DNA of 64,000 bases from a virus, in IMG/VR virus record IMGVR_UViG_3300019760_000001, positions 43,714-107,713 of that record; one strand, given 5' to 3'. How positions within the stretch are numbered: position 1 is the first letter of the stretch; the number at the start of each line of letters is the position of its first letter. A model generated the notes under the pieces. That model did no database searches. It saw only the letters and a list, made by a program, of their open reading frames with translations, and was not told where the DNA came from. The position numbers and the translations under genes are program-made. Below are positions 14,605-64,000 of this stretch, piece by piece.

Positions 14605-16272
14605 CTAAATAGATTGAAATGGTTCGATTACAAATTCAGTAATCACCGCTGATGGGATTGACTCAATAAGGCTTGAGTTAATGTTGTTGACAACGTCAGT
14701 AGCACGTTCAGTTGGCACATAATGACAAGCCATATCGTAATACAATCCTGCCATCAGTAATAGTGGATTGTCAGATGCATCAAGCATGTCGACAATATCG
14801 CCTCGATGGGCTAGGATGTCATCTTTTAAATACTTATCAACAATGTTCTTTGCTGGCTTCGTCTTCGACTTAACAGTTAGCAATGGTACATCAGACCCAC
14901 TTGCGTAATTACCGACAATACCAGACACATCAAACAACTTCGCATCAGGTTGATGAGTAAGTTGAACAGAATCGTTCACCCCGTGGTAAATAGACTCCGC
15001 TTCGTGTAATTCTGGTAAGGCTTTCAACATCATCTGCTCGGCAACTGATAAACAAACAAACTTGTACTCAGACTTGCTAATAACCGTGTTCAACGGAATA
15101 ACCAAGTTGAATGAGTGGTTGTTATTCGGTTCTACTGTGCTGATAAAGTGCTGTGTATCGGCTAAGTATGTGTTCACTTGCTGCATAGACAGAAATGAAT
15201 CAGTAACAGACAGGCAGATGAATTTGGTAGTATCATCAACAAATGGATTGAATGATGATAACTTGCTAGTCAACTTGCCAAGAGACTCGGCTGGACGATT
15301 TTCGTGAATCGCATGGATTGGTCGTTCGTCAGAGAAAGTTGAGATTGCTCTGAATGAATAATCACCGGATACCGTATTAGTAACAACTGGAATAAACACA
15401 AATGCGTTGTCCTTGTCGTTGTATGAAACAGTTGCTGTACCAGCTAAACGTGAGTTAACAGGCTTAAGAAATCCCTCAAGGGCTGCCTTGTTCACTTGCC
15501 GAGTAGTTATGTATCCACGAGTGATTGCTTCGTCAATTGGTAAAATATTGTCGAAAAAACCTTGCTCCCAATCGTTGATGAACAGCTCATAGTCTTTGAG
15601 TTCCAGAGTTGCTGCAAAACGTTTAAGATGCTCCGCAGTGTAGTCACAGAAGTAAATTGCTGCGATTAGTGTTTGCTTGTCAATAGTTCGTTTGTTCTGT
15701 GCCATTGCCCAAGTTGCTGCGATCCTGCCCATCTTGAACGCTCTACCTGCCATCTCGATACCTTCCACAGATTCACCATCCTTCAACAGAAGTAATTCGC
15801 TCAGTGTGTTGGTATATGACTTGTAGTCGTCGTATACAATTGCTGCATCCTCGTCGAACATGATTTGTCCGTCGTCCATAATTGACTTGATAGCAGTTAA
15901 CATAAGTTCGTCGATTGATAGAGTAAGTTCCCTAACATTCTGCCTAGCTTCGGCTTGTCGAGTACGGTTCTCTGCAGGAGTTCCTGGGATTACCTTGTTC
16001 TCAAACTCTTCTTTAGCATTAGAGAAAACAACAGTAATTCTACGAGCTAATGAAGTAGTTAACATTGGTACCAGCAACTTACGAACGTTACCATCTGCTT
16101 GGTAGAATGGAGTTGGTGAACTAATACCAAGTAAATTAGTATAAGCGTTATCAACTGCTTCTTCCTTCGACTCCAGGCCCTTGAACTCCGGTGCAACAGA
16201 CTGCCCCATATCGAAAAGAACTGAGAAAAGCTCAAGAACTTCCATGATAGTGGAGTTAGACTGGATTGCCAT
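14605..16272 (-). CDS. DUF3987-type replication ATPase/helicase, exon 2
   Basis: This frame continues the protein encoded by 17471-18088 after removal of a group I intron. Joined, exon 1 ends IFSSELG and exon 2 reads on MAIQSNSTIMEVLELF. LLGISSPTPFYQADGN and LARRITVVFSN are typical of the ATPase core of DUF3987 proteins. Alone, the frame has a start-like ATGATG but no ribosome site. The spliced product is about 761 residues. Confidence 0.8.
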   Translation of the reverse strand: MAIQSNSTIMEVLELFSVLFDMGQSVAPEFKGLESKEEAVDNAYTNLLGISSPTPFYQADGNVRKLLVPMLTTSLARRITVVFSNAKEEFENKVIPGTPAENRTRQAEARQNVRELTLSIDELMLTAIKSIMDDGQIMFDEDAAIVYDDYKSYTNTLSELLLLKDGESVEGIEMAGRAFKMGRIAATWAMAQNKRTIDKQTLIAAIYFCDYTAEHLKRFAATLELKDYELFINDWEQGFFDNILPIDEAITRGYITTRQVNKAALEGFLKPVNSRLAGTATVSYNDKDNAFVFIPVVTNTVSGDYSFRAISTFSDERPIHAIHENRPAESLGKLTSKLSSFNPFVDDTTKFICLSVTDSFLSMQQVNTYLADTQHFISTVEPNNNHSFNLVIPLNTVISKSEYKFVCLSVAEQMMLKALPELHEAESIYHGVNDSVQLTHQPDAKLFDVSGIVGNYASGSDVPLLTVKSKTKPAKNIVDKYLKDDILAHRGDIVDMLDASDNPLLLMAGLYYDMACHYVPTERATDVVNNINSSLIESIPSAVITEFVIEPFQSI

Positions 16273-17470
16273 CATTTATATTCAAGTAAGGCGTTACACT
16301 TACTCCGAGCTTTTAACTCGCTTACAGTCTCCTGTAAGATTAGAACATATCTTAAACTAAATTATTTATTTTTACAAATTTTACATTTTCTCATAGGCCG
16401 TCCTATAAGACTAGATTTCTTTTTATCAGTAGTATCACCACATAAAGTACATTGACAAGTTAAGACTTGTACTTCATCGTCGAAGTAGTAATCCAGTATA
16501 TGCCAGTGATCCTTATATGTGCCTTTGAGTTTCTCCAATGTCCTAACTGAACGTTCTCTTCCAGCTTGTTTAGTCCTACAACTTAAACAACCTTCAGATT
16601 TACCAGAGATTAATTGATTTTTATCAACTACTGAATCCGTTCCACACCCTGTACAAGTTACATTCATATTAAATCTGAACATTCCTTGCGTCCCAATCTC
16701 TTCACGTCCGTGAAATCCTGTGACTTCCCATAAACCAAATGTACGACCAGTTAACTCTGCTACTTGTTCAGCGATTTCTGCTTGAACTTTAGCATTTGCT
16801 GCTTGTCCGCCTTTAGACTGAGACTCAAATAGCCTACCCTGTAATTGAGCATGTACGAGGTTCTCTGAATAGGTACACCACTCGATATTGTTAACTGAGT
16901 TGTTAGACCCGTTATTGTCAATATGGTTTACGCACGGTTTGTTAGTTGGGTTGTCTATGAAGTGTGATGCTACAAGTCGGTGGACTAAGAATCTCTCGAT
17001 TCTGCCATTGTCTTGTAATGTCACCCTAAGATAGGTTGTTTGCGGTTGGATAGACTTTGCCAGTGTTAAATAGATCTTACTACGTTTAGAGTAAACTCTA
17101 CCTTTACTGGTAATTGAGTATAATTCCTCAAAGCCTTTGATATCTTTATGTATTTCTTCCATTATGTTCTCCTATTATGTTTAATAACATTATAGCAGAA
17201 AATATTTATTTGTAACTTAAATAAGTTAGTTTATTCCTATTTCTTCCTCATTTTATAACTAGAGGTTCTACTCCCTGACGGGATGTTCGTTGAACGTTCA
17301 TCGGTAAATTAATACTACGATGCTTCGCTGCTGATTTTCTCTATCGTACACATTTTCAGGGTTCGTTACCTACTTTCGTGGTAATATCCTAGTGTACGCC
17401 TAACAAGACGTTCCAGACAATTAAAGAATTTTGCTACATACTCTCACGAGTACGAGGGGCTGGTTAGTTA
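16273..17470 (-). mobile_element. Group I intron carrying an HNH endonuclease
   Basis: About 1.2 kb separates two parts of one ATPase frame, and exon 1 is closed by a TAA right at the proposed 5' splice site. Exon 1 ends GGGT, which can pair with GCCC 10 nt into the intron, leaving a terminal U-G pair as required for P1. GTTCAACGA near 17290 resembles a group I core element. The 3' G could be 16273 or 16270, both in frame. The insertion falls at the SSELG motif beside the ATP site. Confidence 0.8.
16362..17162 (-). CDS. HNH homing endonuclease with NUMOD4 (intron-encoded)
   Basis: The 266-residue protein begins with a NUMOD4-like segment (IKGFEELYSITSKGRVYS) and an HNH core (VHRLVASHF, CVNHIDNNGSNNSVNNIEW). 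The C-terminal half has four CxxC pairs (CTGC, CLSC, CTLC, CKIC), likely DNA-binding zinc ribbons. It has its own AGGAG site. It should cut intronless alleles and spread the intron. Confidence 0.92.
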   Translation of the reverse strand: MEEIHKDIKGFEELYSITSKGRVYSKRSKIYLTLAKSIQPQTTYLRVTLQDNGRIERFLVHRLVASHFIDNPTNKPCVNHIDNNGSNNSVNNIEWCTYSENLVHAQLQGRLFESQSKGGQAANAKVQAEIAEQVAELTGRTFGLWEVTGFHGREEIGTQGMFRFNMNVTCTGCGTDSVVDKNQLISGKSEGCLSCRTKQAGRERSVRTLEKLKGTYKDHWHILDYYFDDEVQVLTCQCTLCGDTTDKKKSSLIGRPMRKCKICKNK

Positions 17471-18088
17471 ACCCAATTCCGAGCTGAAGATTGACTTAGT
17501 ACCAAATTGAGACTTCGCCATTCGGTTCATCGATGAAGTAAGTCCGCCACGAGTTGAGGCAAGACTGGTAATAGCCATCTCCAACTTCGGTACTTCGTCC
17601 TTGAAGTCCTCGATAGTCACTGTGCTCTCGTCAAACTCAGGGTTAGCTGCCTTCATCGCTTTGCAGTAAGATAGTTTGGCTTTCTCCTCGGCTTCGTCAC
17701 GTTGCATAGAGTTGATTAGCTCAAGTGCTGATGCAGTTGCCTTCGATAAAGCTTGGTAAGTTGAGTCCTTACCAGAACCAGACTTACTGATTACCATTCC
17801 ATATGTGTTGATACCAATAACATCGTCCGAATAAATTGGGTCGTTGATTACTGGTCGACACTGTCCAAATAAATGGCTAAGAACGAAATTGGCTACACTC
17901 AGTGCAGACACGTTCGAGAATGATGGTGATTTGCTAGTAGCTAACTTGATCATGTCCTGCATGATTGATGGTAGACCAGATGTGTCAAATTGACGCATGT
18001 TACGGTTCTGTAAAAAACCTAGTTCGGCTTCGTACTGGTTAACAAGGTGCTGAAGGTCGGTTGCTATTTTTGATTCAATATTGCTCAT
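17471..18088 (-). CDS. DUF3987-type replication ATPase/helicase, exon 1
   Basis: The 206 codons contain the N-terminal adaptor region, Walker A ISKSGSGKDST (about 128-138) and end at KSIFSSELG, where the second acidic motif of the ATPase would start. The frame is cut by the group I intron immediately after GGT. Known members act with an AEP primase, encoded two genes away, as replicative helicase or loader. Confidence 0.8.
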
Positions 18089-27162: not shown

Positions 27163-27176
27163 GTTGCGGTGTAAGG

Positions 27177-27255
27177 TGGACATTCCAAGAGTTGAACTTG
27201 TGGCCTCCTGTTATTTCATGCTAGTGCAGGCGCTCTACCACTGAGCTAAATGTCC
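27177..27255 (-). tRNA. tRNA gene with oversized anticodon loop
   Basis: GGACATT/AATGTCC form a perfect acceptor stem, GCTC-AGTGGTA-GAGC is a canonical D arm and TTCAACT the T loop. The anticodon arm starts CCTGC and ends ACAGG but encloses about 14 nt instead of 7, so no anticodon can be assigned. The variable loop AGGCC is normal. Confidence 0.6.
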
Positions 27256-27559: not shown

Positions 27560-27648
27560 TGTGTGTCATCGGAATTGAACCGACTCCCTGTAGTTACAGC
27601 CGTAAAGATTGCTTCGGCTTGGTATGTGTCTTTGTGAACCATTCACAC
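27560..27648 (-). tRNA. Possible tRNA, 89 nt
   Basis: GTCGG-TTCAATT-CCGAT is a T arm followed by GACACAC, which pairs with GTGTG at the 5' end over only five positions. AGCCG and CGGCT pair as an anticodon-like stem around a 12-nt loop. The D arm is not convincing. Confidence 0.4.
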
Positions 27649-27802: not shown

Positions 27803-27871
27803 TCACGATTCCATTCCTGAAACCACGCCGCAGATTACTCCGCATCCGATTTTGCTTCCTCTGAAATTCAT
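27803..27871 (-). CDS. Small ORF, 22 aa
   Basis: An ATG at 27871 with AAGGAG 5 nt upstream opens MNFRGSKIGCGVICGVVSG. It lies just downstream of the 195-residue gene. It is Gly-rich and may be a membrane peptide or a leader for the tRNA-like region. Confidence 0.4.
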   Translation of the reverse strand: MNFRGSKIGCGVICGVVSGMES

Positions 27872-27927
27872 CAAAGACTCCTTAAAGTTGTTTGTGGCTG
27901 TGATCATTTAACCTAGGCACCACTAAA

Positions 27928-28515
27928 TTATTGAAGATGAACTGGTAGTTCACCGATGAAAGGCTGACAGTAATCCCATCTTGTCGGTCCTTTAGTTATA
28001 TATTGACCGCAAGTAGACTTGAGTTGTCCAATGACTGCAGTCGTTGAACCAGTATTCCAAAACCAACACCATTCCCCAGGTTGGGGTTCCCAAAGTTCGT
28101 AATCAGGACCATAAGGACATGTGTCGTCTTTGCACTGAAATACATAGTCATCAGGATGACGAACCCAAGTACCAACTGTAAAAGTTTGGTGTTCTGTCTT
28201 GATACGGTATTGCAAATCAGGACTAAAAGCAAAGGAAGGATTGGTATAATTCAAGTCATCCCAAATCTCTGTGTCCCACTTCCACTTATCGTAAAACTGC
28301 AATTGTTTCCCTTCAGCCAAGGCTTTTCTGAAAGTGGAATATTCATCATCCAATACGTAAATAGTATCAAACGCTTCCCAATCAGTATGGGAAGTAACGG
28401 ATTTCCAAGTAAGTGTCCTATCAGACATAGAGGTTGGGTAGCCCATTAAAACTGGTTGCTCGTTGACCCAGTTAGTAAATTCGTTAATGTATTTGGCCAC
28501 AGTTGATTTTCGCAT
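27928..28515 (-). CDS. Conserved phage-type protein, 195 aa
   Basis: The protein holds PDLQYRIKTEHQ in the middle and WEPQPGEWCWFWN near the end, a combination I associate with uncharacterised phage proteins. No catalytic motif visible. It is expressed just after the PD-(D/E)XK nuclease gene. Confidence 0.7.
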   Translation of the reverse strand: MRKSTVAKYINEFTNWVNEQPVLMGYPTSMSDRTLTWKSVTSHTDWEAFDTIYVLDDEYSTFRKALAEGKQLQFYDKWKWDTEIWDDLNYTNPSFAFSPDLQYRIKTEHQTFTVGTWVRHPDDYVFQCKDDTCPYGPDYELWEPQPGEWCWFWNTGSTTAVIGQLKSTCGQYITKGPTRWDYCQPFIGELPVHLQ

Positions 28516-28524
28516 GTAAAACTC

Positions 28525-29496
28525 CTATATTTGGTCACATATGCTGTGACTGAATGAGCAATACTCACACAGAATGTGTCTGCTCTCCTCGATATTTTCG
28601 ACATCGCCAGGTTTACCCTTAGTCATGACAAACTGCCTGAACTCAGCACCGTTGTCAAATTTCGACCCGCGAACAGTTGCTAGTTTACCAGTTTTTCCCA
28701 TTCGTTGCAGTTTGTAACTAGGCGGACGAGTTCCTCGTTCGTTCGGTGTACAGTCAGGGTAAGTTCCGGCTGCTAAGTGCTGTTGCATCAGTTTGATACG
28801 CTCAATTAAGTACTGGTGAATCTCTTCAACAGGGAATAGGGGGAACTTCATCTCTGAGTAAGTTGGGAAATCATCCTGGAACGAGCTAGACGTTAAGTTG
28901 AACAAGATAGAGCCATAAGGCTTAGTAACTAATTCTTGGTTCAAGTATCTGTACATAGACATCTGCATTGTGTATTTGGCGTAGTTTGGGAATTGCTCGT
29001 ACATCTCCTGGATAGATAGACCAGGTTGAACTGCATCCTTGTCCTGCATAAGTAACTTGTACGCAAAACTAGATATGTTCTTCAGATCCTTGATTTCTCC
29101 ATCAGGTGTGACAATATCGAATTTACCAGATACAGTAACACCAAGGATAGTCGTCTCCGACCGTACTTCCTGCGTATACCCACCAACAGAATTTAAGGCT
29201 TCTTCCATGCCTGTGTGTAAGATAGTACCAATTGCTGATTTGCTAATAGACATAATGTCCATAGAATCAGTAGTAACCGGGTGAGTTATCTTGTACAGTA
29301 GCTTACGCATTGGTCCGATAATATCAGACACAGATATGTTGGTTGCTGTAGTTGGTTTGCCGTCGTACTGAGTTGAGGCCCATGCGAACATGAGACTAAG
29401 CTCCCTAGGTACGTTGGAGTTGTTGGTAAATGACTTACCGTTGATTGTGATTAAGTTAGCTTGCTGTGCAGTGGCTACATCAGTTAAGTGTGACAT
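28525..29496 (-). CDS. PD-(D/E)XK (Cas4/RecB-like) nuclease
   Basis: I start at 29496, where AAGGAGTAAT precedes ATG and the previous gene ends 1 bp earlier. VSGKFDIVTPDGEIKDLKNIS (split as VSGKFD and IKDLKN) supplies the D and D-x-K of the nuclease core, preceded by GTILHTGMEEAL. The C-terminus CEYCSFSHSIC could hold a metal cluster as in Cas4-type exonucleases. A recombination exonuclease partner of the Sak4/SSB set is likely. Confidence 0.75.
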   Translation of the reverse strand: MSHLTDVATAQQANLITINGKSFTNNSNVPRELSLMFAWASTQYDGKPTTATNISVSDIIGPMRKLLYKITHPVTTDSMDIMSISKSAIGTILHTGMEEALNSVGGYTQEVRSETTILGVTVSGKFDIVTPDGEIKDLKNISSFAYKLLMQDKDAVQPGLSIQEMYEQFPNYAKYTMQMSMYRYLNQELVTKPYGSILFNLTSSSFQDDFPTYSEMKFPLFPVEEIHQYLIERIKLMQQHLAAGTYPDCTPNERGTRPPSYKLQRMGKTGKLATVRGSKFDNGAEFRQFVMTKGKPGDVENIEESRHILCEYCSFSHSICDQI

Positions 29497-29497
29497 A

Positions 29498-29884
29498 TTA
29501 CTCCTTAATGAATAGACGGTCAGTTGAAACAACTTGACCATCTGATAAATGAACTCCATCAGCTGCGATAGAGTCGACAATTACTTCAGTTTGCTCGTCA
29601 AGCCAGAAAGTTTGTCCAAGTGCGTTGATACAAATGGCTTTGACTGGGATAAACTGAGGCTGACACAGTTTGTGTGCTTCTTCGATTATTCTGTCCATAG
29701 TTGGCCATGCTCGTTTATCAACATTGTGTGATAAACCATACATATTTTTGTCTTTCTCTAAATGGCAAAGCACTAAAAACTTACTCTTACATTGATAAGT
29801 TAAGTTCAACACAACAGGCAGGCCAGTTGCTGCTAATCGACGGTTGATGATGAGCAGTTGCTCGAAATGTTTGATGTGATTCAT
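29498..29884 (-). CDS. Hypothetical protein, 128 aa
   Basis: The helical N-terminus precedes a beta-rich end (ALGQTFWLDEQTEVIVDS). Located between the nuclease and the nucleotidyltransferase genes. Not recognised. Confidence 0.65.
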   Translation of the reverse strand: MNHIKHFEQLLIINRRLAATGLPVVLNLTYQCKSKFLVLCHLEKDKNMYGLSHNVDKRAWPTMDRIIEEAHKLCQPQFIPVKAICINALGQTFWLDEQTEVIVDSIAADGVHLSDGQVVSTDRLFIKE

Positions 29885-29893
29885 TATTTATCC

Positions 29894-30922
29894 TTAATTG
29901 AATATTCTGTCAATAACAGTAGTTACGTAGTCTCCGGTTAAATCAATTGATTTCCCAGATTCTATTTGCTTTCTAACTTGTCTAATAAACTGCATGAAGT
30001 AAATAGAGTCTACCCCAGTTAATTGATCCTCAAGCACATAAATATTGTTAAGGTCAAGCTTGTTAATTTGCATAGCCATTTTCAAATATTGGCCTGCGTT
30101 GATATGATACCCTCGTTTAATGAACTTTCTTGTACGGATCATACTTGCTATTGGATACTTGCTGCCTCTATATACTAGTACTTTGTTCATTAGTGCTTCA
30201 AGCACTTCAGCATCAGCAACTACTTTTTTATTAGTCGAATGCCAGTAACCTGTACAGTGTACAAAATCATAGTTAGAGTGGATTTCTTCCGGGTCTCCAT
30301 AAAAACGAACAACTATCTGAATCTTATCCGATAATGTAATTGCATTTGCACTAATAAATATAGGTCTGTATTTGTTTTTTGGTTGTTCGTTATTGCTTTG
30401 AGTTCTTTCAACATATTCTTCAACGTCATAATCCACTTCATCAGCTGTGTTATCTTCTGCAATACCATCAGAGTTTATAATTATCTTAACTTGGTCTGGT
30501 GCTGTATTAAGTAACATACCACTAGGCCCATAAGACAAATGCCTACCTTCCTCAGCATTCCACTCCATAGCAGGCTCATACTGAACTGGGTCATAACCAT
30601 GAGCAAATGAACTAATACATTTATCCCCTGATTTCCATGCGGCGATATCCTCCCCATCCAGTACCCAAGCCGGTGTGCTATTACTTGGCTGCGATTTGTT
30701 AAACTGCTCACAATAATAGTTAGCTAAACGAATAAGAACTTGTTTATTTGATATATAAATATCATAATCATTAACTTGTTCATTTAAGAACATTGAAGCT
30801 ATAGCTCCTCCAGTTACAATTATATTTGATTTAAGATCATTACGTAATTCTGTGTCAGTAATTGAGTTTAACCATTCGTTAGTTTTTGTTGTCAGGTTTC
30901 TTGATATTGATTTTTTTGTCAT
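29894..30922 (-). CDS. Nucleotidyltransferase-fold protein, 342 aa
   Basis: VTGGAIASMFLNEQVNDYDIYI (in two parts, TGGAIAS and NDYDIYI) is the G-G-x(n)-D-h-D signature of poly(A)-polymerase-like nucleotidyltransferases. A second segment near 270 (SMIRTRKFIKRGYHINAG) is basic. Substrate unknown. It overlaps the SF2 helicase gene by 1 bp. Confidence 0.65.
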   Translation of the reverse strand: MTKKSISRNLTTKTNEWLNSITDTELRNDLKSNIIVTGGAIASMFLNEQVNDYDIYISNKQVLIRLANYYCEQFNKSQPSNSTPAWVLDGEDIAAWKSGDKCISSFAHGYDPVQYEPAMEWNAEEGRHLSYGPSGMLLNTAPDQVKIIINSDGIAEDNTADEVDYDVEEYVERTQSNNEQPKNKYRPIFISANAITLSDKIQIVVRFYGDPEEIHSNYDFVHCTGYWHSTNKKVVADAEVLEALMNKVLVYRGSKYPIASMIRTRKFIKRGYHINAGQYLKMAMQINKLDLNNIYVLEDQLTGVDSIYFMQFIRQVRKQIESGKSIDLTGDYVTTVIDRIFN

Positions 30923-32736
30923 TAATTGTCCTTTGGTTCAATTTTTTTGAAACACTTGATTAAAGCGGCTCGTGATAAGTCACTTGAGTTCAGTGTGTTC
31001 ATAATTTGTTTAGCGTTCTGGCTCGTGATGTTCTTCATCTGGTAATACGCATAGCCCTTACGGATTGAAAAATGCTCACAAATGTGCTCCAACTTCGACC
31101 GGATTAGCTTCTTGATCAGTCCTGTGTTCGACTCAGACTCCCAATTAACTAGGGGTAGAGCGTAGTTCAGTTCAGTATCAACAACAACGTTCGGTAACTT
31201 AGACTTGGCGTTAGACAAAATAGTAAACGGCTGGTCGTTAAAGTATTTGAGACAGTGCTCGTACAGCTCAGTTGAGTTGGTGAACATCTTGAACGAGTAA
31301 GTCGGCTTGTTAAGATCGTCGAGGATTGCTAGTGCTTTACCGTGCTCTTGGGAGTACAAGATAGTAACACAATTGCTCGGCACTTCGTCTTGGTACATAG
31401 TAATCATCTGCGATGGTTCGGTGAGAGTTGCTACGTCGTAATACGATACACAACCACACTTACACTTGGACCACTTACGTAAAACACCAACACTCGGCTC
31501 GGTTGACTTGAAAGACATGTTGAAAACCGGCACAGTTTCTCCACAAGGTTCGCCCGAGCTGATGGTGAAGTTGCTAACATATGGGTTGTCGATTAGTGAG
31601 TATGGTAGTTGACCATCACAAGTCGACATAGGCGGTTCAGATACACAAGATGCTTCACAAAAGAACCTCTCCATAGGATTCTTCAGCTTCGCACACTGTT
31701 CACGACAGGTTGGCTTTTCCTTACGCCAATCGTTGAAGAATGGGTTAATACGAGATAAAGTACCAGAGTAATCGTAAACAGTTGCTTGTTTGTTGCCGTT
31801 GAGCGTAGATGCACGCCAGACAGATTGCAAGAACAGCGAAGTCACACGAGTTGGTGTGAGGTACAATATAGTATCAGTAGTCGGTGAATCATACCCAATC
31901 GTAAGCATACGAACATTGATGATAATACCATTAGTACAGTCCTCGTACCAGTTCGTGACAACTTCCAATTGAGACTTGCTCAGCTTGGAGTGAATAACAC
32001 GTACATTGGCTGGATCTGCGAATGCATCAAACACCTTCATCGCTGTGTGGATTGAGTTAACGTACAGAATACACTTGTGCTCAGTAGCCCAGTTGAGTTG
32101 GTTCGCATCAGCTACCAATTGGTCAACAACAGCAGACTTGTCCAGAACACGTTCAATGTCCGTGTCGATGTACTCACCATTCCGTACACCAATAGATGAT
32201 TCGTCTGCCAGTAGATTGTACCGAGAGATGAACCGAGTTGGTGCAAGATAACCGTCAGATAGCATCTGCTTCATGCTAGTGAATTCCAGTATGTTGTCGA
32301 TCGAATCATCTAAGAACCGGCCATTAGGCTTGAGTGGTGTACCAGTCATAAACAATCGAGTACAAGATAAGCTGCGAATTTCCTTCACTAACTTGGTGTC
32401 GTACCGCATATGTGCTTCGTCAATAGCAACTAAATCGTAGCTAGACAGATCTATTGACCTTCTCTGAAAGGTTTGAAATGTCGCAAGTTGAATATGTTTG
32501 TTATCGTCGTGGTGTTTACCGGTTAGAATAAACGTATGGTCGTCGAAGTAGTCCGCTAACTGGAGCACTATATTGCGCATCCCCACTAGAATTAATACAC
32601 GTTTACCAGTGAAGTAACGCTCAATAATTCGCTCCAAAATATAGGATTTGCCTGAACGCATGGTTGAGATCATCAGGTTGGATTGGTTAAGTTGAATACC
32701 ATCAACATATTGGGTTTGGTAAGGCCGTTCTTGCAT
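30922..32736 (-). CDS. Superfamily 2 DEAD/DEAH-box helicase
   Basis: Motifs appear in order: STMRSGKSY (Walker A), VAIDEAHMRY (DEAH), FMTGTPL (motif III), then SVWRASTLNG (motif VI). CREQCAKL, CEASC and CKCGC in the second half may bind zinc. The 604-residue size and layout resemble UvsW/RadD-type helicases used for branch migration and repair. Confidence 0.85.
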   Translation of the reverse strand: MQERPYQTQYVDGIQLNQSNLMISTMRSGKSYILERIIERYFTGKRVLILVGMRNIVLQLADYFDDHTFILTGKHHDDNKHIQLATFQTFQRRSIDLSSYDLVAIDEAHMRYDTKLVKEIRSLSCTRLFMTGTPLKPNGRFLDDSIDNILEFTSMKQMLSDGYLAPTRFISRYNLLADESSIGVRNGEYIDTDIERVLDKSAVVDQLVADANQLNWATEHKCILYVNSIHTAMKVFDAFADPANVRVIHSKLSKSQLEVVTNWYEDCTNGIIINVRMLTIGYDSPTTDTILYLTPTRVTSLFLQSVWRASTLNGNKQATVYDYSGTLSRINPFFNDWRKEKPTCREQCAKLKNPMERFFCEASCVSEPPMSTCDGQLPYSLIDNPYVSNFTISSGEPCGETVPVFNMSFKSTEPSVGVLRKWSKCKCGCVSYYDVATLTEPSQMITMYQDEVPSNCVTILYSQEHGKALAILDDLNKPTYSFKMFTNSTELYEHCLKYFNDQPFTILSNAKSKLPNVVVDTELNYALPLVNWESESNTGLIKKLIRSKLEHICEHFSIRKGYAYYQMKNITSQNAKQIMNTLNSSDLSRAALIKCFKKIEPKDN

Positions 32737-32737
32737 A

Positions 32738-32989
32738 CTACTTCCCTTCGTACCAGTTAGTAAACCGGTTAATTAGATTAGTTGGCCAAATCCAAGTAAA
32801 TAAATAAAAGCCTCCTACCAATACTACCATTAAAGGCCACATAATAGACATACCAAACGCAGCTCCAAATGGAGTTGGTTTCATATTAGGTCCAGACCAA
32901 CCTGTGATAATCCTGTCTGTTGTGTTAAAATACTTGATAGCAACAATTGACAGCACGAAACCGGCACAGTAAATAATAAAATAGATCAT
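32738..32989 (-). CDS. Membrane protein, 83 aa, two helices
   Basis: Hydrophobic stretches at residues 1-19 and 43-68 separated by a polar loop predict two membrane passes with a basic C-terminal tail. It ends 2 bp before the helicase gene. No family recognised. Confidence 0.7.
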   Translation of the reverse strand: MIYFIIYCAGFVLSIVAIKYFNTTDRIITGWSGPNMKPTPFGAAFGMSIMWPLMVVLVGGFYLFTWIWPTNLINRFTNWYEGK

Positions 32990-33038
32990 AAATTCTCCTT
33001 AATACTTGATAAGACCTACTGAGTAGGCCCTACAAATG

Positions 33039-33209
33039 TTAGTCACCAATCAAATTGATTTGGTTAATAGTAAAGCTGTACTCCGTACCCTTGGCGTTCA
33101 AGTCAGCAACGTGTGCGTAAGCCTTCGACTCAGAGAAGAAGGTAAGGATGGGTTGTGCAGTGCCAGCAGGTGTGAACTGTGTAACTAGGTAAATTGGTGT
33201 GATTGTCAT
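33039..33209 (-). CDS. Small protein, 56 aa
   Basis: The ATG at 33209 overlaps the upstream TGA (ATGA). The product reads MTITPIYLVTQFTPAGTA and looks like one beta-rich domain. A short hairpin CCTAC-TGA-GTAGG follows at 33016-33028. Confidence 0.55.
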   Translation of the reverse strand: MTITPIYLVTQFTPAGTAQPILTFFSESKAYAHVADLNAKGTEYSFTINQINLIGD

Positions 33210-33448
33210 TTCGCACTCTCGAATTGGTTGCAGCCGTCAGTTGGTTCAATCATAGACTGAACGCAAAAAGAATTTGGGTTATTACAGTATTGCCTACCTC
33301 CAAAGTCACAATTACCACAAACTCGTGATTCGATGTCGTCGTAGACGTCGTCAAGTATATACTCAGCTTGGTTTATGACGTCATACTTGTCTAGGAATGG
33401 ATCGTCTACTGCTTCAGCCAATTTGTCGTGTGCTTGTTGTCTGTTCAT
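33206..33448 (-). CDS. Cys-rich protein, 80 aa
   Basis: CGNCDFGG, CNNPNSFC and CNQF supply five Cys in a zinc-knuckle-like spacing after an acidic helical N-terminus. Similar short Cys-rich phage proteins are of unknown function. Confidence 0.65.
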   Translation of the reverse strand: MNRQQAHDKLAEAVDDPFLDKYDVINQAEYILDDVYDDIESRVCGNCDFGGRQYCNNPNSFCVQSMIEPTDGCNQFESAK

Positions 33449-33457
33449 GTTAGTTCC

Positions 33458-33655
33458 TTAGTCCATTACAAAATGGGTTGGTTGTGTAGCAGTAAAGTCG
33501 ATTCGTTCGTCCAGTACTGAGTTAGGCAATATATGATCAATTTCCGTAACAGGATAACAGTCACCAAGATAATCCTCGTAAATGAAGGCTACTGGTAGAT
33601 CCCCATTGAATTCTACTAGTGTTTCAAGTTCGTTAATTAATTCAGATGCCAGCAT
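33458..33655 (-). CDS. Hypothetical protein, 65 aa
   Basis: MLASELINELETL resembles the start of a common small phage protein family (helix followed by a beta hairpin). No function known to me. Confidence 0.6.
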   Translation of the reverse strand: MLASELINELETLVEFNGDLPVAFIYEDYLGDCYPVTEIDHILPNSVLDERIDFTATQPTHFVMD

Positions 33656-33656
33656 G

Positions 33657-34199
33657 TTAGTTCCTTAAGTGATTGGTTAGTTGTTCGACAGTTGGGTTAG
33701 GTATGATACCATCCTTGGTAGCAATGGCTAACTTCCCTGCAAATAGCGGATCGCTGATTAAAGCAATTTGTCCGTTAATGATGAAATAATCCTCGACAGG
33801 AGGGCAGATAAACTTAGGCTCAGGCGTTGGTTCTGTTACGATTGAGTCAATACGATTAGAGTACAGATTGCCAAGAGATGGAAATTCCGCTAACTTCATA
33901 TTCAGTTGGTACTTATATGGTAACTTACCAGCGTAAGAAATTTGGTTAGTTGCTACCTTGATGATAAAACCAGAAGCAATAAGTTTGGGAACAATACGCT
34001 CAATAGAACGTACAGAAACTCCAGTAAGCTTGCTGAGTTCAGAGTAGCTGAGTAGTTCCGTGGTATACTGGTAATACCCAACACACTTACGTGCGATAGC
34101 CATGTACACCAAATGGTCGTTACCTTGTAATTTACCAAAACTCCATAAAAGAAGTTTACCTAATGCTTGCCATCCATTGGCTGTTGTTGATTCACTCAT
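33657..34199 (-). CDS. Winged-helix Rep-like protein, 180 aa
   Basis: Residues ~45-85 hold LLSYSELSKLTGVSVRSIER and KLIASGFIIKV, a winged helix of the type in phage O-like and plasmid Rep proteins. The C-terminal half is not recognised. The gene is preceded by a pseudoknot leader with a CGAAAGA start motif and an iteron-like array about 200 bp upstream, so it may be an initiator that binds those repeats. Confidence 0.6.
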   Translation of the reverse strand: MSESTTANGWQALGKLLLWSFGKLQGNDHLVYMAIARKCVGYYQYTTELLSYSELSKLTGVSVRSIERIVPKLIASGFIIKVATNQISYAGKLPYKYQLNMKLAEFPSLGNLYSNRIDSIVTEPTPEPKFICPPVEDYFIINGQIALISDPLFAGKLAIATKDGIIPNPTVEQLTNHLRN

Positions 34200-34203
34200 G
34201 TGA

Positions 34204-34327
34204 TCTTTCGGATTAATAAAATTTAAGTGAGAGTAAAAAAGAATGTCCAGTTCCGTTCCTCTGATAGCACTTAATAAACAACAGGAGAAACTGGTACTGG
34301 ACGAACCGGGCTACTGCTGTTTATTAA
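34204..34327 (-). promoter_or_regulatory. Pseudoknot leader A with CGAAAGA start motif
   Basis: On the minus transcript a 14-bp stem (34314-34327 with 34271-34284, one mismatch) encloses a loop segment at 34296-34302 that pairs with 34245-34251 further down, giving an H-type pseudoknot. An AT-rich stretch and CGAAAGA (34210-34204) lead to the ATG at 34199. Three related leaders occur at 37.4, 60.9 and 62.9 kb. Confidence 0.7.
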
Positions 34328-34412
34328 AAGCTACTAAGAGATTATACTGGGTAAGCACTTAAAGATAGATTAATACTGAGAGATATAAGTAAAAGTAATA
34401 GTTCGCTAAAAA

Positions 34413-34489
34413 CCGACAAAAGTGTGGAATATAGTACCGACAAAATAGCAGGTTATACACCGACAGATTGGCGGAAATTAATGCCGACA
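34413..34489. repeat. Iteron-like array, four CCGACA repeats at 23-24 bp
   Basis: CCGACA begins at 34413, 34437, 34460 and 34484. Each unit starts ACCGACAAAA or GCCGACAAA and continues with a related sequence (two share GGTTATAC). Spacing of 23-24 bp is the range of plasmid and phage iterons bound by a Rep protein. AT-rich DNA and hairpins follow. This is my best candidate for a replication origin, or an operator for the adjacent wHTH protein. Confidence 0.55.
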
Positions 34490-34668
34490 AACATACGGTT
34501 ATACGCGGTTTATCTATTAAAGGGAATATCTAGTAAAGATATTCATCTTAATAAAGATAAAGATCAGTCGCACCAACTGCTAAGGCTTGGGAGCCTACAC
34601 ATATGGTGCTGAAATTGCGAGAGTTGGAGGAGGTTTGACGAATTACTGCAAACAATAGTAAGGCTCAA
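34490..34668. other. AT-rich segment and hairpins next to the iterons
   Basis: No gene is convincing. GAATATC and GATATTC (34524-34544) form a 7-bp inverted repeat, and GCACCA/TGGTGC encloses AGGCT-tggg-AGCCT at 34570-34609. These are the kinds of secondary elements found beside iteron origins. Confidence 0.45.
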
Positions 34669-35199
34669 CTAGTTCTGTTCCTCACCATACCATTCTTCGT
34701 AGTCATCATCAGAACCATACTTCGTAGTTAAGGCCCATCTAATTGAAGCTTCCTCAGAATCAAGCTGTCCGACAGACATATCGTCGAACTTACCTTCGCC
34801 ATTAGTGAATGTTAGAACTCCACAGTTGTACCCAATATCTTCATCAGCAAAAGTTGCTGTGAAAGTATGGTCAGGATGAACAATTGATAAGTGCTTAATA
34901 ATAGCCTCTGGACAAGACCAAGCTGTATCGAACTGTACTTCTGTATCAGAGATAATAATATCGTAGCAATTCCACTTAGTTCCCCAGTTCTTCAGTCTCC
35001 AAGTGTACCAGTTGTCTGCTCCGTACTTGGTAATAAGCTCCTCGTTAGGTTCACAAGGAGAAGTAGTTCCCTCAAGCCCAGACGGCATAGGAATGATTAA
35101 ATTAAAATCAAACTCAGATTCCGATGATTGGTACTTAGGTAAAATTGTACCCGCTTCTGGTCCGCTAATAGTTAGTGTAGTTGTAATATTGTTTGGCAT
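34669..35199 (-). CDS. DUF1281 / Api92-like protein, 176 aa
   Basis: MPNNITTTLTISG, FDFNLIIPMP, NWYTWRLKNWGTKWN and FDTAWSCPEAI occur in the order typical of the DUF1281/Api92-like family found in phages and plasmids. The C-terminal ferredoxin-like part has lower identity. Function unknown. Confidence 0.8.
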   Translation of the reverse strand: MPNNITTTLTISGPEAGTILPKYQSSESEFDFNLIIPMPSGLEGTTSPCEPNEELITKYGADNWYTWRLKNWGTKWNCYDIIISDTEVQFDTAWSCPEAIIKHLSIVHPDHTFTATFADEDIGYNCGVLTFTNGEGKFDDMSVGQLDSEEASIRWALTTKYGSDDDYEEWYGEEQN

Positions 35200-36237: not shown

Positions 36238-37383
36238 TTAATCTCCTTCTCTACTAAATAATTCCATATCCTTGAACTTCTCATAAGCTAGGTTAAGGAT
36301 ATTCGTTTTGAATAATTCTGTATTACCTGACTTCAATAAGTCAGGACCTGTATACTTATGGTCAATGAATTCTCTAAGAATTCGCTGTTCCTCATTGTAA
36401 GCATCTTTTCCGGACTTATAATGGATTTGATGTAAGACTCTGATATTACTCATATCAAGCCCGAATCTCTCTTTAATTGTCCGGTTTGTTATACCGATCT
36501 TATACGCTTCTCCGTTATTGATTGAAAGATAATATAGTACAGCTGATTTAGCCCCATCAAACCCCGTTTTCGTACAGGAAGAGCAGCCTCTACCTGATAG
36601 GTGATCGGAGGCTATTTGTTCAAAATCACCATGCGTTGAGCAAGTGATTATCACTTTACTTTTCGCATTTGTGTATATTGTATTTGAGTAATAGTACTTA
36701 TTATTATGTACTTTTTGTGATTCTTTGATAAAGTCTTTCGTGGTTTTATTCCTACCTAGACATCTAGGGCAACCAGACCCAACCAAATGACTACTAGGAG
36801 TTTGTTCAAAGTCTCCATGTATTGGACAGGTTATTTTTACATTGTCTCTTGCAGTTGTGTACTCGACGTTTGTATAAGTGTAAGTATTATTATGCACTGC
36901 TTTTGCTTGTAGTATAAATTCTTGAGTACTGGATTTTTTAGCTTGGCTACTCTTTGCAATGCCACACTTTCTGCACCCAACACCTTTTAGGTGATTTGTA
37001 GGTACTTGCTTAAAATCCCCGTGGATTGGGCAAGTAATGATCACAGGTTCATGTGCAGAGTGATAAGAAATATTAGAGTAGGTGTAAAAATCATTATGTA
37101 CTTCAACGGCCTCCGCAATAAAACTGAAAACTGATTTACGTAAACGATTTCCTACAGCCTCGTTTTTACATCTACTACACCCAGAACTTTTAAGGTGTCC
37201 TTCAGCTCTTTGCTTATAAGTAAAATTATGTATTTTACACGTAATCGTAATAGGATTTTTAGCACCTGTGTACACAGCCTCACTATAATCACATTTATCA
37301 TCATACAGACCAATTAGCTTCTTTTTAAAATTTTTATAAGCCTGTATAGATCTAGGATTGGTAATACCTGGATGTAATTTCAT
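36238..37383 (-). CDS. GIY-YIG endonuclease with four repeated DNA-binding modules
   Basis: Residues ~1-280 contain four copies of a module with the pattern Y-x-Y-(S/T)...(I/V)-T-C-x-(T/I)-H-G-D-F...H-L-x-G-x-G-C-x-x-C, a DUF723-like zinc module. SAVLYYLSINNGEAYKIGIT (~283-302) is a T5orf172-type GIY-YIG core. The modules probably read the target. It is a freestanding homing-type nuclease. Its first module resembles the start of the HNH protein at 61007. It carries pseudoknot leader B. Confidence 0.8.
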   Translation of the reverse strand: MKLHPGITNPRSIQAYKNFKKKLIGLYDDKCDYSEAVYTGAKNPITITCKIHNFTYKQRAEGHLKSSGCSRCKNEAVGNRLRKSVFSFIAEAVEVHNDFYTYSNISYHSAHEPVIITCPIHGDFKQVPTNHLKGVGCRKCGIAKSSQAKKSSTQEFILQAKAVHNNTYTYTNVEYTTARDNVKITCPIHGDFEQTPSSHLVGSGCPRCLGRNKTTKDFIKESQKVHNNKYYYSNTIYTNAKSKVIITCSTHGDFEQIASDHLSGRGCSSCTKTGFDGAKSAVLYYLSINNGEAYKIGITNRTIKERFGLDMSNIRVLHQIHYKSGKDAYNEEQRILREFIDHKYTGPDLLKSGNTELFKTNILNLAYEKFKDMELFSREGD

Positions 37384-63071: not shown

Positions 63072-63905
63072 ATGCAAGTTAATACAAATGCAACAATACA
63101 CGGTGACGTACTACGTCAAGAGCAAGTAGGACATACACAAAACAACAAGAATGGGACTGTGGTAAGATACACAGAGACCACAACTACACTGGTAAGACAG
63201 AATAGAGCAAAGACAGGTAACATGAAAAGACTAGGACCAGCAGTAATGACAATGATGCTAAACGTAGCAGGAGATACACACAAGAGTACAGCACTAGGAA
63301 AACTAATAGCTGAGACAAGAGGTGGAAAGACTGGTAATATCGCGTACGATAGTAAGGGCAAACCACTAAACAAATCAATAGCAGAATGGTTAGGGTGCTC
63401 GGCTCCCGTAGCAAGTAAAGTACTAAAGTGGTTAATCGAATCAGGCATGGTTGTGAAGATTGGTAAATACAAGCTAATGACTAACCCATACGAGATACTA
63501 CCAAATCAACTAGGAAGTGATGCTGTGGCTCAATTGCAGGCACATTGGGACGATAACCCTACTGAAGTAATAGAATGGCTGGAGAAGGAAGATATAGACC
63601 AAATAACAAGAGAACACACAGACTTGCTAGTAGAAAGTAGAAAAGAGCAAATAGTGCTAGAGAAACAAGCAACAGCTGAAGCAAATAAACAAGACCAACA
63701 TGCGTACGAGAACATACACCTAGCAACACCAATACTAGAGATAATGCTGAAGAAACACGAACTACAGGACATAACACCAAGTCACCTGCGGCACTACATC
63801 AACAAGACTGGTAAGATGGACGGAGTACTGACACTACATACGGATAGACCAACACAGAAGTTACTAATGGACTACACAATCCAACAAAACAGTCAACTTC
63901 AGTAA
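63072..63905 (+). CDS. Winged-helix replication-type protein (RepL-like), 277 aa
   Basis: Residues ~50-145 contain MKRLGPAVMTMMLN, NKSIAEWLGCSAPVASKVLK and KLMTNPYEILP, a winged helix followed by an N-P motif like the RepL plasmid initiators. The C-terminal 130 residues are helical and not recognised. It carries pseudoknot leader C, like the wHTH gene at 33657. Replication initiation or its control is plausible. Confidence 0.6.
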   Translation: MQVNTNATIHGDVLRQEQVGHTQNNKNGTVVRYTETTTTLVRQNRAKTGNMKRLGPAVMTMMLNVAGDTHKSTALGKLIAETRGGKTGNIAYDSKGKPLNKSIAEWLGCSAPVASKVLKWLIESGMVVKIGKYKLMTNPYEILPNQLGSDAVAQLQAHWDDNPTEVIEWLEKEDIDQITREHTDLLVESRKEQIVLEKQATAEANKQDQHAYENIHLATPILEIMLKKHELQDITPSHLRHYINKTGKMDGVLTLHTDRPTQKLLMDYTIQQNSQLQ

Positions 63906-63980
63906 AACACAAGCCAATGTGACCTATAATGTAGTCAGGTAGTTAAGATAGACTGCCTGAAACTACAATAAAGGGCCAAT
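63906..63980. other. Intergenic region with TATAAT and hairpin
   Basis: TATAAT near 63922 without a good -35 is followed by a stem GTAGTCAGG/CCTGAAACTAC. It is the leader of the next, cut-off gene. Confidence 0.4.
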
Positions 63981-64000
63981 ATGGAATTAGAACTAACATT
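63981..64000 (+). CDS. Start of a gene cut by the window edge
   Basis: An ATG at 63981 behind AAAGGG begins MELELT. Too little remains to identify it. Confidence 0.5.

Follow-up and report, generated by a model that had tools for sequence, protein, structure and literature searches.

Iteron origins of replication are well known, and their mechanism is ordinary. In the origin (ori) of phage lambda, four iterons are bound by the O protein and an adjoining AT-rich tract is needed for unwinding (PMC7466680). Iteron plasmids (RepE, pi) combine a direct-repeat array and an AT-rich element with an adjoining gene for a Rep_3 initiator, and in the PLE satellite of Vibrio cholerae intergenic iterons are bound by the satellite's own initiator, RepA (PMC8263062). 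Here, a predicted iteron origin of a large tailed phage is described in a window of 64,000 nucleotides (nt), the whole stretch of DNA analysed, which corresponds to positions 43714-107713 of the 107,713-bp virus record IMGVR_UViG_3300019760_000001. In this window, four CCGACA-led repeats lie upstream of a gene for a putative O-like winged-helix initiator. Coordinates below refer to the window unless the record is named.

With the lambda-type origins of lambda and the Stx phages, the locus shares four tandem iterons and an AT-rich tract and, by prediction, an O-like winged-helix initiator; its iterons may also be imperfect dyads. In lambda, however, the iterons lie inside the initiator gene, whereas here they are upstream of it; lambda has a P-type helicase loader, whereas no loader of the P/DnaC type was seen among the approximately 30 window proteins scanned, an SF2 helicase and a gp43-like primase being present; the initiator here has only 180 residues (aa); and this phage, unlike lambda, encodes its own polymerase and primase. 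With its iterons outside the initiator gene and without a loader partner among the proteins scanned, the locus is not classed as a lambda-type origin. Nor is it classed as a Rep_3 plasmid origin: it has the direct-repeat array, AT-rich element and adjoining initiator gene of the iteron plasmids, but a Pfam scan of the initiator gives HTH_36 alone, with no match to Rep_3. The PLE origin likewise has intergenic iterons beside its own initiator, but that initiator is of the RepA_N type and the replicon is a satellite element. By analogy, the best reading is a predicted iteron origin that would work like lambda ori, with the iterons upstream of the initiator gene.

The CCGACA array and its intergenic setting

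The core of the predicted origin and the initiator gene comprise the following features:

34413..34436, plus strand: iteron unit 1, CCGACAAAAGTGTGGAATATAGTA
34437..34459, plus strand: iteron unit 2, CCGACAAAATAGCAGGTTATACA
34460..34483, plus strand: iteron unit 3, CCGACAGATTGGCGGAAATTAATG; best dyad CCGACA-GAT-TGGCGG, 5/6 arm pairs, arms common with the iterons of virus L267 (see below)
34484..34507, plus strand: iteron unit 4, CCGACAAACATACGGTTATACGCG
34509..34568, no strand: AT-rich element, candidate unwinding element, abutting unit 4; 21.7% GC, within the lowest 0.3% of genome 60-mers
33657..34199, minus strand: 180-aa winged-helix protein, predicted O-like replication initiator (Pfam HTH_36, phrog_678, AlphaFold2 (AF2) winged helix)

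The initial annotation had reported four CCGACA-led repeats at 23-24 bp, and these are confirmed on the plus strand at 34413, 34437, 34460 and 34484, with spacings of 24, 23 and 24 bp. Across the units conservation is limited to the CCGACA core and, less strictly, a GG 13-14 bases downstream of it, and the right halves have diverged. When arrays were defined as four same-strand copies of a 6-mer with spacings equal within 1 bp and a period of 12-40, CCGACA was the sole 6-mer in the 107,713-bp record to form one, and no such array arose in any of 60 simulated third-order Markov genomes. A weight matrix built from the units gives 22.7-26.6 bits at the four copies, and no other position in the genome exceeds 14.0, which indicates a single locus and not a dispersed motif. 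Another CCGACA, the fifth, at 34769, was rejected, being coding and off register. Dyad symmetry over all four units is suggestive, with 5/6 arm pairs in unit 3 and 3-4/6 in the others (summed p 0.017).

The array is held in a gap of 469 bp between the stop of gene 34669-35199 (minus strand) and the start of the initiator gene, in agreement with the approximately 470 bp of non-coding DNA claimed earlier; a 62-aa open reading frame (ORF) with a GTG start on the opposite, plus strand of the gap (34424-34612) is not credible as a gene. The AT-rich segment said to adjoin the repeats also proved real and stands flush with unit 4. Further features flank the array (z, fold compared with shuffles):

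34320..34412, no strand: further AT-rich stretch, flanking the array towards the initiator gene; the 90-bp window at 34320 has 26.7% GC, within the lowest 1%
34265..34333, no strand: long inverted repeat between the array and the initiator gene; z -3.0
34510..34560, no strand: AT-rich inverted repeat within the AT-rich element; z -4.9
34570..34609, no strand: G+C-richer hairpin of 6+3+5 pairs with two 2x2 internal loops and a 4-nt loop; z -5.4

On the initiator-gene side, a window at 34341 has 25% GC (lowest 1.3% of the genome). Where two inverted repeats had been noted, their presence holds and their number does not, as three strong ones flank the array. The whole gap folds better than shuffles (z -5.1), and the array itself does not (z -0.7). 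Inverted repeats in an origin could be priming or control elements, and the hairpin at 34570-34609 is possibly a single-strand priming signal or an RNA processing site. The repeat at 34265-34333 interleaves with a 10-bp repeat (34245-34254/34293-34302) followed by a minus-strand T-run (34238-34243), so that 34238-34333 is a possible attenuator or pseudoknot leader. The adjacent hairpins at 34510-34560 and 34570-34609 are built alike, with stems broken by small internal loops and terminal loops of 4-5 nt. An Rfam search gave no matches, these two hairpins included, and sigma-70 promoters and terminators occur at chance level only, none of the sigma-70-like promoters overlapping the array.

A putative HTH_36 initiator and CCGACA arrays in other viruses

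The gene beside the array had been described as Rep-like and winged-helix; the winged helix and the role of putative initiator stand, and the plasmid Rep_3 type does not. Its product matches Pfam HTH_36 (2.1e-6, above the Pfam cut-off), phrog_678, 'replication initiation O-like' (1.3e-8), and phrog_270 (5.4e-4). As a putative HTH_36/O-like winged helix, it resembles lambda O or DnaD more than a plasmid Rep_3 protein. The array lies approximately 210-310 bp upstream of its start codon at 34199 and not inside the gene. A single-sequence AF2 model was too poor, and the model used was made with ten aligned HTH_36 proteins; its first 85 residues contain a winged helix, with block means of the predicted local distance difference test (pLDDT) mostly at 80-95 over residues 11-80, except for a loop at 41-50. 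The nearest solved fold is the N-terminal domain of DnaD, a weak match. A sequence search of the PDB gave no meaningful match, and no close relatives were found by tblastn in phages or by peptide patterns in viral contigs.

Independently of any protein reference, IMG/VR was scanned with a DNA-only pattern of three CCGACA copies 23-24 bp apart, which returned at least 120 loci, and an array was considered linked when an HTH_36 domain lay within 500 bp. One hexamer of equal base composition, CACGCA (99 loci), served as a modest control; the order of the scan is not random. Among the matches listed, 15 of 120 CCGACA loci (9 protein lineages) were linked, compared with 2/99 control loci (1 lineage), giving a Fisher p of 0.003 by locus and 0.02 by lineage (9 vs 1); many of the listed CCGACA matches are repeats within coding frames. 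The occurrence of CCGACA in the viruses found is by construction; its location on initiator genes is not. The nine array-linked HTH_36 proteins, one per lineage, all match replication-initiation, O-like or DnaD-like PHROG families. Linked arrays are mostly inside the initiator gene, in the lambda manner, and are upstream of it in L064 and L095, as in this phage.

The HTH_36/O-like initiators with in-gene CCGACA iterons (L267, L088, L043 and others) share the core with this phage and, in several cases, the 23-24-bp period; their proteins are 12-21% identical to the initiator here over the aligned part. A tighter pattern, CCGACARA three times, which all four units here fit, gave 14 matches, two of which, in L088 and L267, are iterons that lie within HTH_36 genes; nearly all of the remaining matches examined are coding-frame repeats, mostly Pro/Thr-rich, the one in L056, near a contig end, being ambiguous. 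The in-gene iterons of L267 (CCGACAAAAATGGCGGATCATGAC, 24-bp period) have both dyad arms in common with unit 3, including the right arm TGGCGG, and they (CCGACAAAAATGGCGG...) are close to unit 3 (CCGACAGATTGGCGG...). The L267 helix-turn-helix is 33% identical to that of the initiator here over 40 residues, with GVSVRSIER against GLSVRTIER, and the recognition helices of the two proteins are alike.

As a separate observation, in-gene iterons with dyads of the CCGAC...GTCGG type or related ones occur in the HTH_36 replication-initiation genes of the unrelated viruses L043, L039, L070, L103, L127, L053, L088, L110 and L267.

Proposed mechanism and competing explanations

Judged from its sequence, the segment 34413-34568 is probably the core of the phage's origin, where the O-like protein would bind the iterons, the AT-rich element would open and phage replication proteins would load. 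The product of 33657-34199 would recognise the four 23-24-bp iterons through the CCGACA core, probably as dimers on the imperfect dyads CCGACA-N3-4-TGNCGG. The resulting nucleoprotein complex would put strain on the adjoining AT-rich element and open it. Helicase/primase and family-A DNA polymerase, both encoded by the phage itself, would be recruited to the opened site, which may serve as the main origin. The possible iteron origin of the initial annotation is supported, as a prediction, by the O-like family matches, the AT-rich element and the association of CCGACA with HTH_36 relative to the control. The presence of polymerase, gp43-like primase, helicase and nuclease genes in the same strand block also fits an origin.

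Several observations weigh against an origin. A GC-skew check had been suggested earlier, and at 34.4 kb the GC skew of third positions does not switch. Clear dyad symmetry is confined to unit 3 (summed p 0.017 over the units). The initiator, at 180 aa, lacks a recognisable helicase-loader domain, and folds of MarR regulators score about as well as DnaD, so that fold matches do not separate the types; HTH_36 and winged helices occur in transcription regulators too. The module is also missing from distant relatives. The phage polymerase is nearest those of the Alteromonas phages AD45-P1, R22Y and PT11-V19 (30-34% identity), and a polymerase-based search of IMG/VR retrieved an 11-kb fragment (L022, 72% identical) that does not cover the array region and two contigs of 90-97 kb (L270 and L271, 34-35% identical) without the module. 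No correctly spaced CCGACA pair is present in any of these six sequences, and AD45-P1, L270 and L271 (3/5 distant polymerase relatives) lack HTH_36, so these three phages would replicate by other means. The module would therefore be specific to its lineage, and it could act as an accessory origin or as a regulator. No arrays or repeats lie beside the short winged-helix genes of PT11-V19, and a helicase-based search for relatives found none in viral contigs.

In an unlikely explanation, the array is an operator and not part of an origin: the winged-helix protein would be a transcription regulator occupying the four sites, some 210-310 bp upstream of its start codon, to control the operon to which its gene belongs. 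The regulator-like folds, the position of the gene directly downstream of the array and the long inverted repeat with its T-run between the two would all suit an operator. The sequence matches, however, are to replication-initiation families and not to regulators, the HTH_36-linked CCGACA arrays among the matches listed are mostly inside replication-initiation genes, as origins would be, no sigma-70-like promoter overlaps the array, and an AT-rich element abuts it.

It is improbable that the gap is a phage promoter cluster or RNA control region, with hairpin promoters for a virion RNA polymerase (vRNAP) or an attenuator leader and with the CCGACA units as activator sites. The phage does encode a vRNAP-like protein (phrog_2206, 5.8e-44; 2278 aa, record positions 27836-34672), and the vRNAP of phage N4 uses hairpin promoters (PMC4496689). 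The folding of the whole gap and its three strong hairpins also agree with such a role. Early promoters of N4 vRNAP, however, share a short GC-rich hairpin with a 5-7 bp stem and a 3-nt loop, whereas the hairpins here have longer or interrupted stems and loops of 4-5 nt, are unlike each other and have no repeated sequence in common with other gaps. Nor does the array fold, and its unit is found at one genome locus only.

A chance cluster, or the functionless, decayed remnant of an acquired replicon, would account for the module's absence from relatives and for the diverged right halves of the units; it is very improbable given the absence of such an array from all simulated genomes, the intact cores and spacing and the open initiator ORF. 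Least probable is a role in partition, with the array as a centromere-like site for the winged-helix protein, in the way that TubR and similar proteins bind tandem repeats: the weak fold matches of the initiator include TubR and a centromere-binding protein of pNOB8, but no partition ATPase or TubZ-like gene is present among the window proteins scanned (part of the ORFs), and the sequence matches point to initiators.

If the predicted origin is accepted, what is new is its setting in a large vRNAP phage, its intergenic position and the recurrence of the CCGACA core with HTH_36 initiators, together with the partner genes. In the open-licence literature searched, a link between a CCGACA core and HTH_36 initiators was not found, which is no proof of absence. 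Nor did the literature searched contain a mapped origin for N4-type phages; with a compact candidate defined by its sequence, initiation in a phage of this kind can be tested directly. For uncultivated viruses with HTH_36/O-like genes, the link to CCGACA offers a DNA-level handle on origin prediction. Tentatively, the HTH_36/O-like initiators of unrelated phages may share a CCGACA-core code, and this vRNAP phage may have captured an initiator-iteron module as its own origin while its relatives start otherwise. If this were true, it would follow from the module's absence in those relatives that large phages with their own replication machinery acquire modules for replication initiation.

The phage and its neighbouring genes

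An exact 123-bp direct repeat at both ends of the record (1-123 and 107591-107713, the latter being window 63878-64000) suggests a complete circular genome assembly. With N4-type phages (Schitoviridae) and Alteromonas phage AD45-P1, this phage shares a virion-RNA-polymerase-like protein, a gp43-like primase and a family-A polymerase. Its vRNAP-like protein, in a genome of 107.7 kb, is far smaller than the approximately 3,500 aa of N4's. On these grounds the phage is called N4-like in RNA polymerase and primase, and its family is left unassigned. AD45-P1 has a ribonucleotide reductase, as does this phage, and differs from it in lacking both the HTH_36 gene and the CCGACA array.

The initiator gene is followed on its own strand by genes for an SF2 helicase, a protein resembling nucleotidyltransferases and an exonuclease; a polymerase, the gp43-like primase, a UvrD-type helicase and ribonucleotide reductase are encoded farther on. 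The SF2 helicase would be a candidate partner of the initiator:

30922..32736, minus strand: SF2 DNA helicase (ResIII/Helicase_C; phrog_16, 2.7e-46)

The product of 29894-30922 belongs to phrog_4400 and is 36-41% identical to proteins in phages of very different hosts, some of its relatives being annotated as tRNA nucleotidyltransferase or poly(A) polymerase; as a probe for relatives of the phage, this gene retrieved only unrelated phages that share it.

The primase gene is split after residue 206 into 17468-18088 and 14605-16275, and the two pieces align end to end with residues 3-209 (59%) and 210-765 (53%) of a single 767-aa ORF in L022. The 1.2-kb insert between them (region 14605-18088) carries an HNH endonuclease ORF (16362-17162) and, on both sides, group I intron matches that are weak and fall below threshold (E 0.0065 and 0.04); it is probably a homing intron. 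At 27175-27255, inside an 827-bp gap, ARAGORN predicts a tRNA whose anticodon is incomplete, and the minus strand has a word like a T-arm, CGGTTCAATTCCGA, at 27569 and 43928; unusual or decayed tRNA genes may therefore be present. Approximately 2 kb from the array, 36238-37383 encodes a zinc-finger endonuclease-like protein (DUF723, phrog_681), possibly a homing endonuclease.
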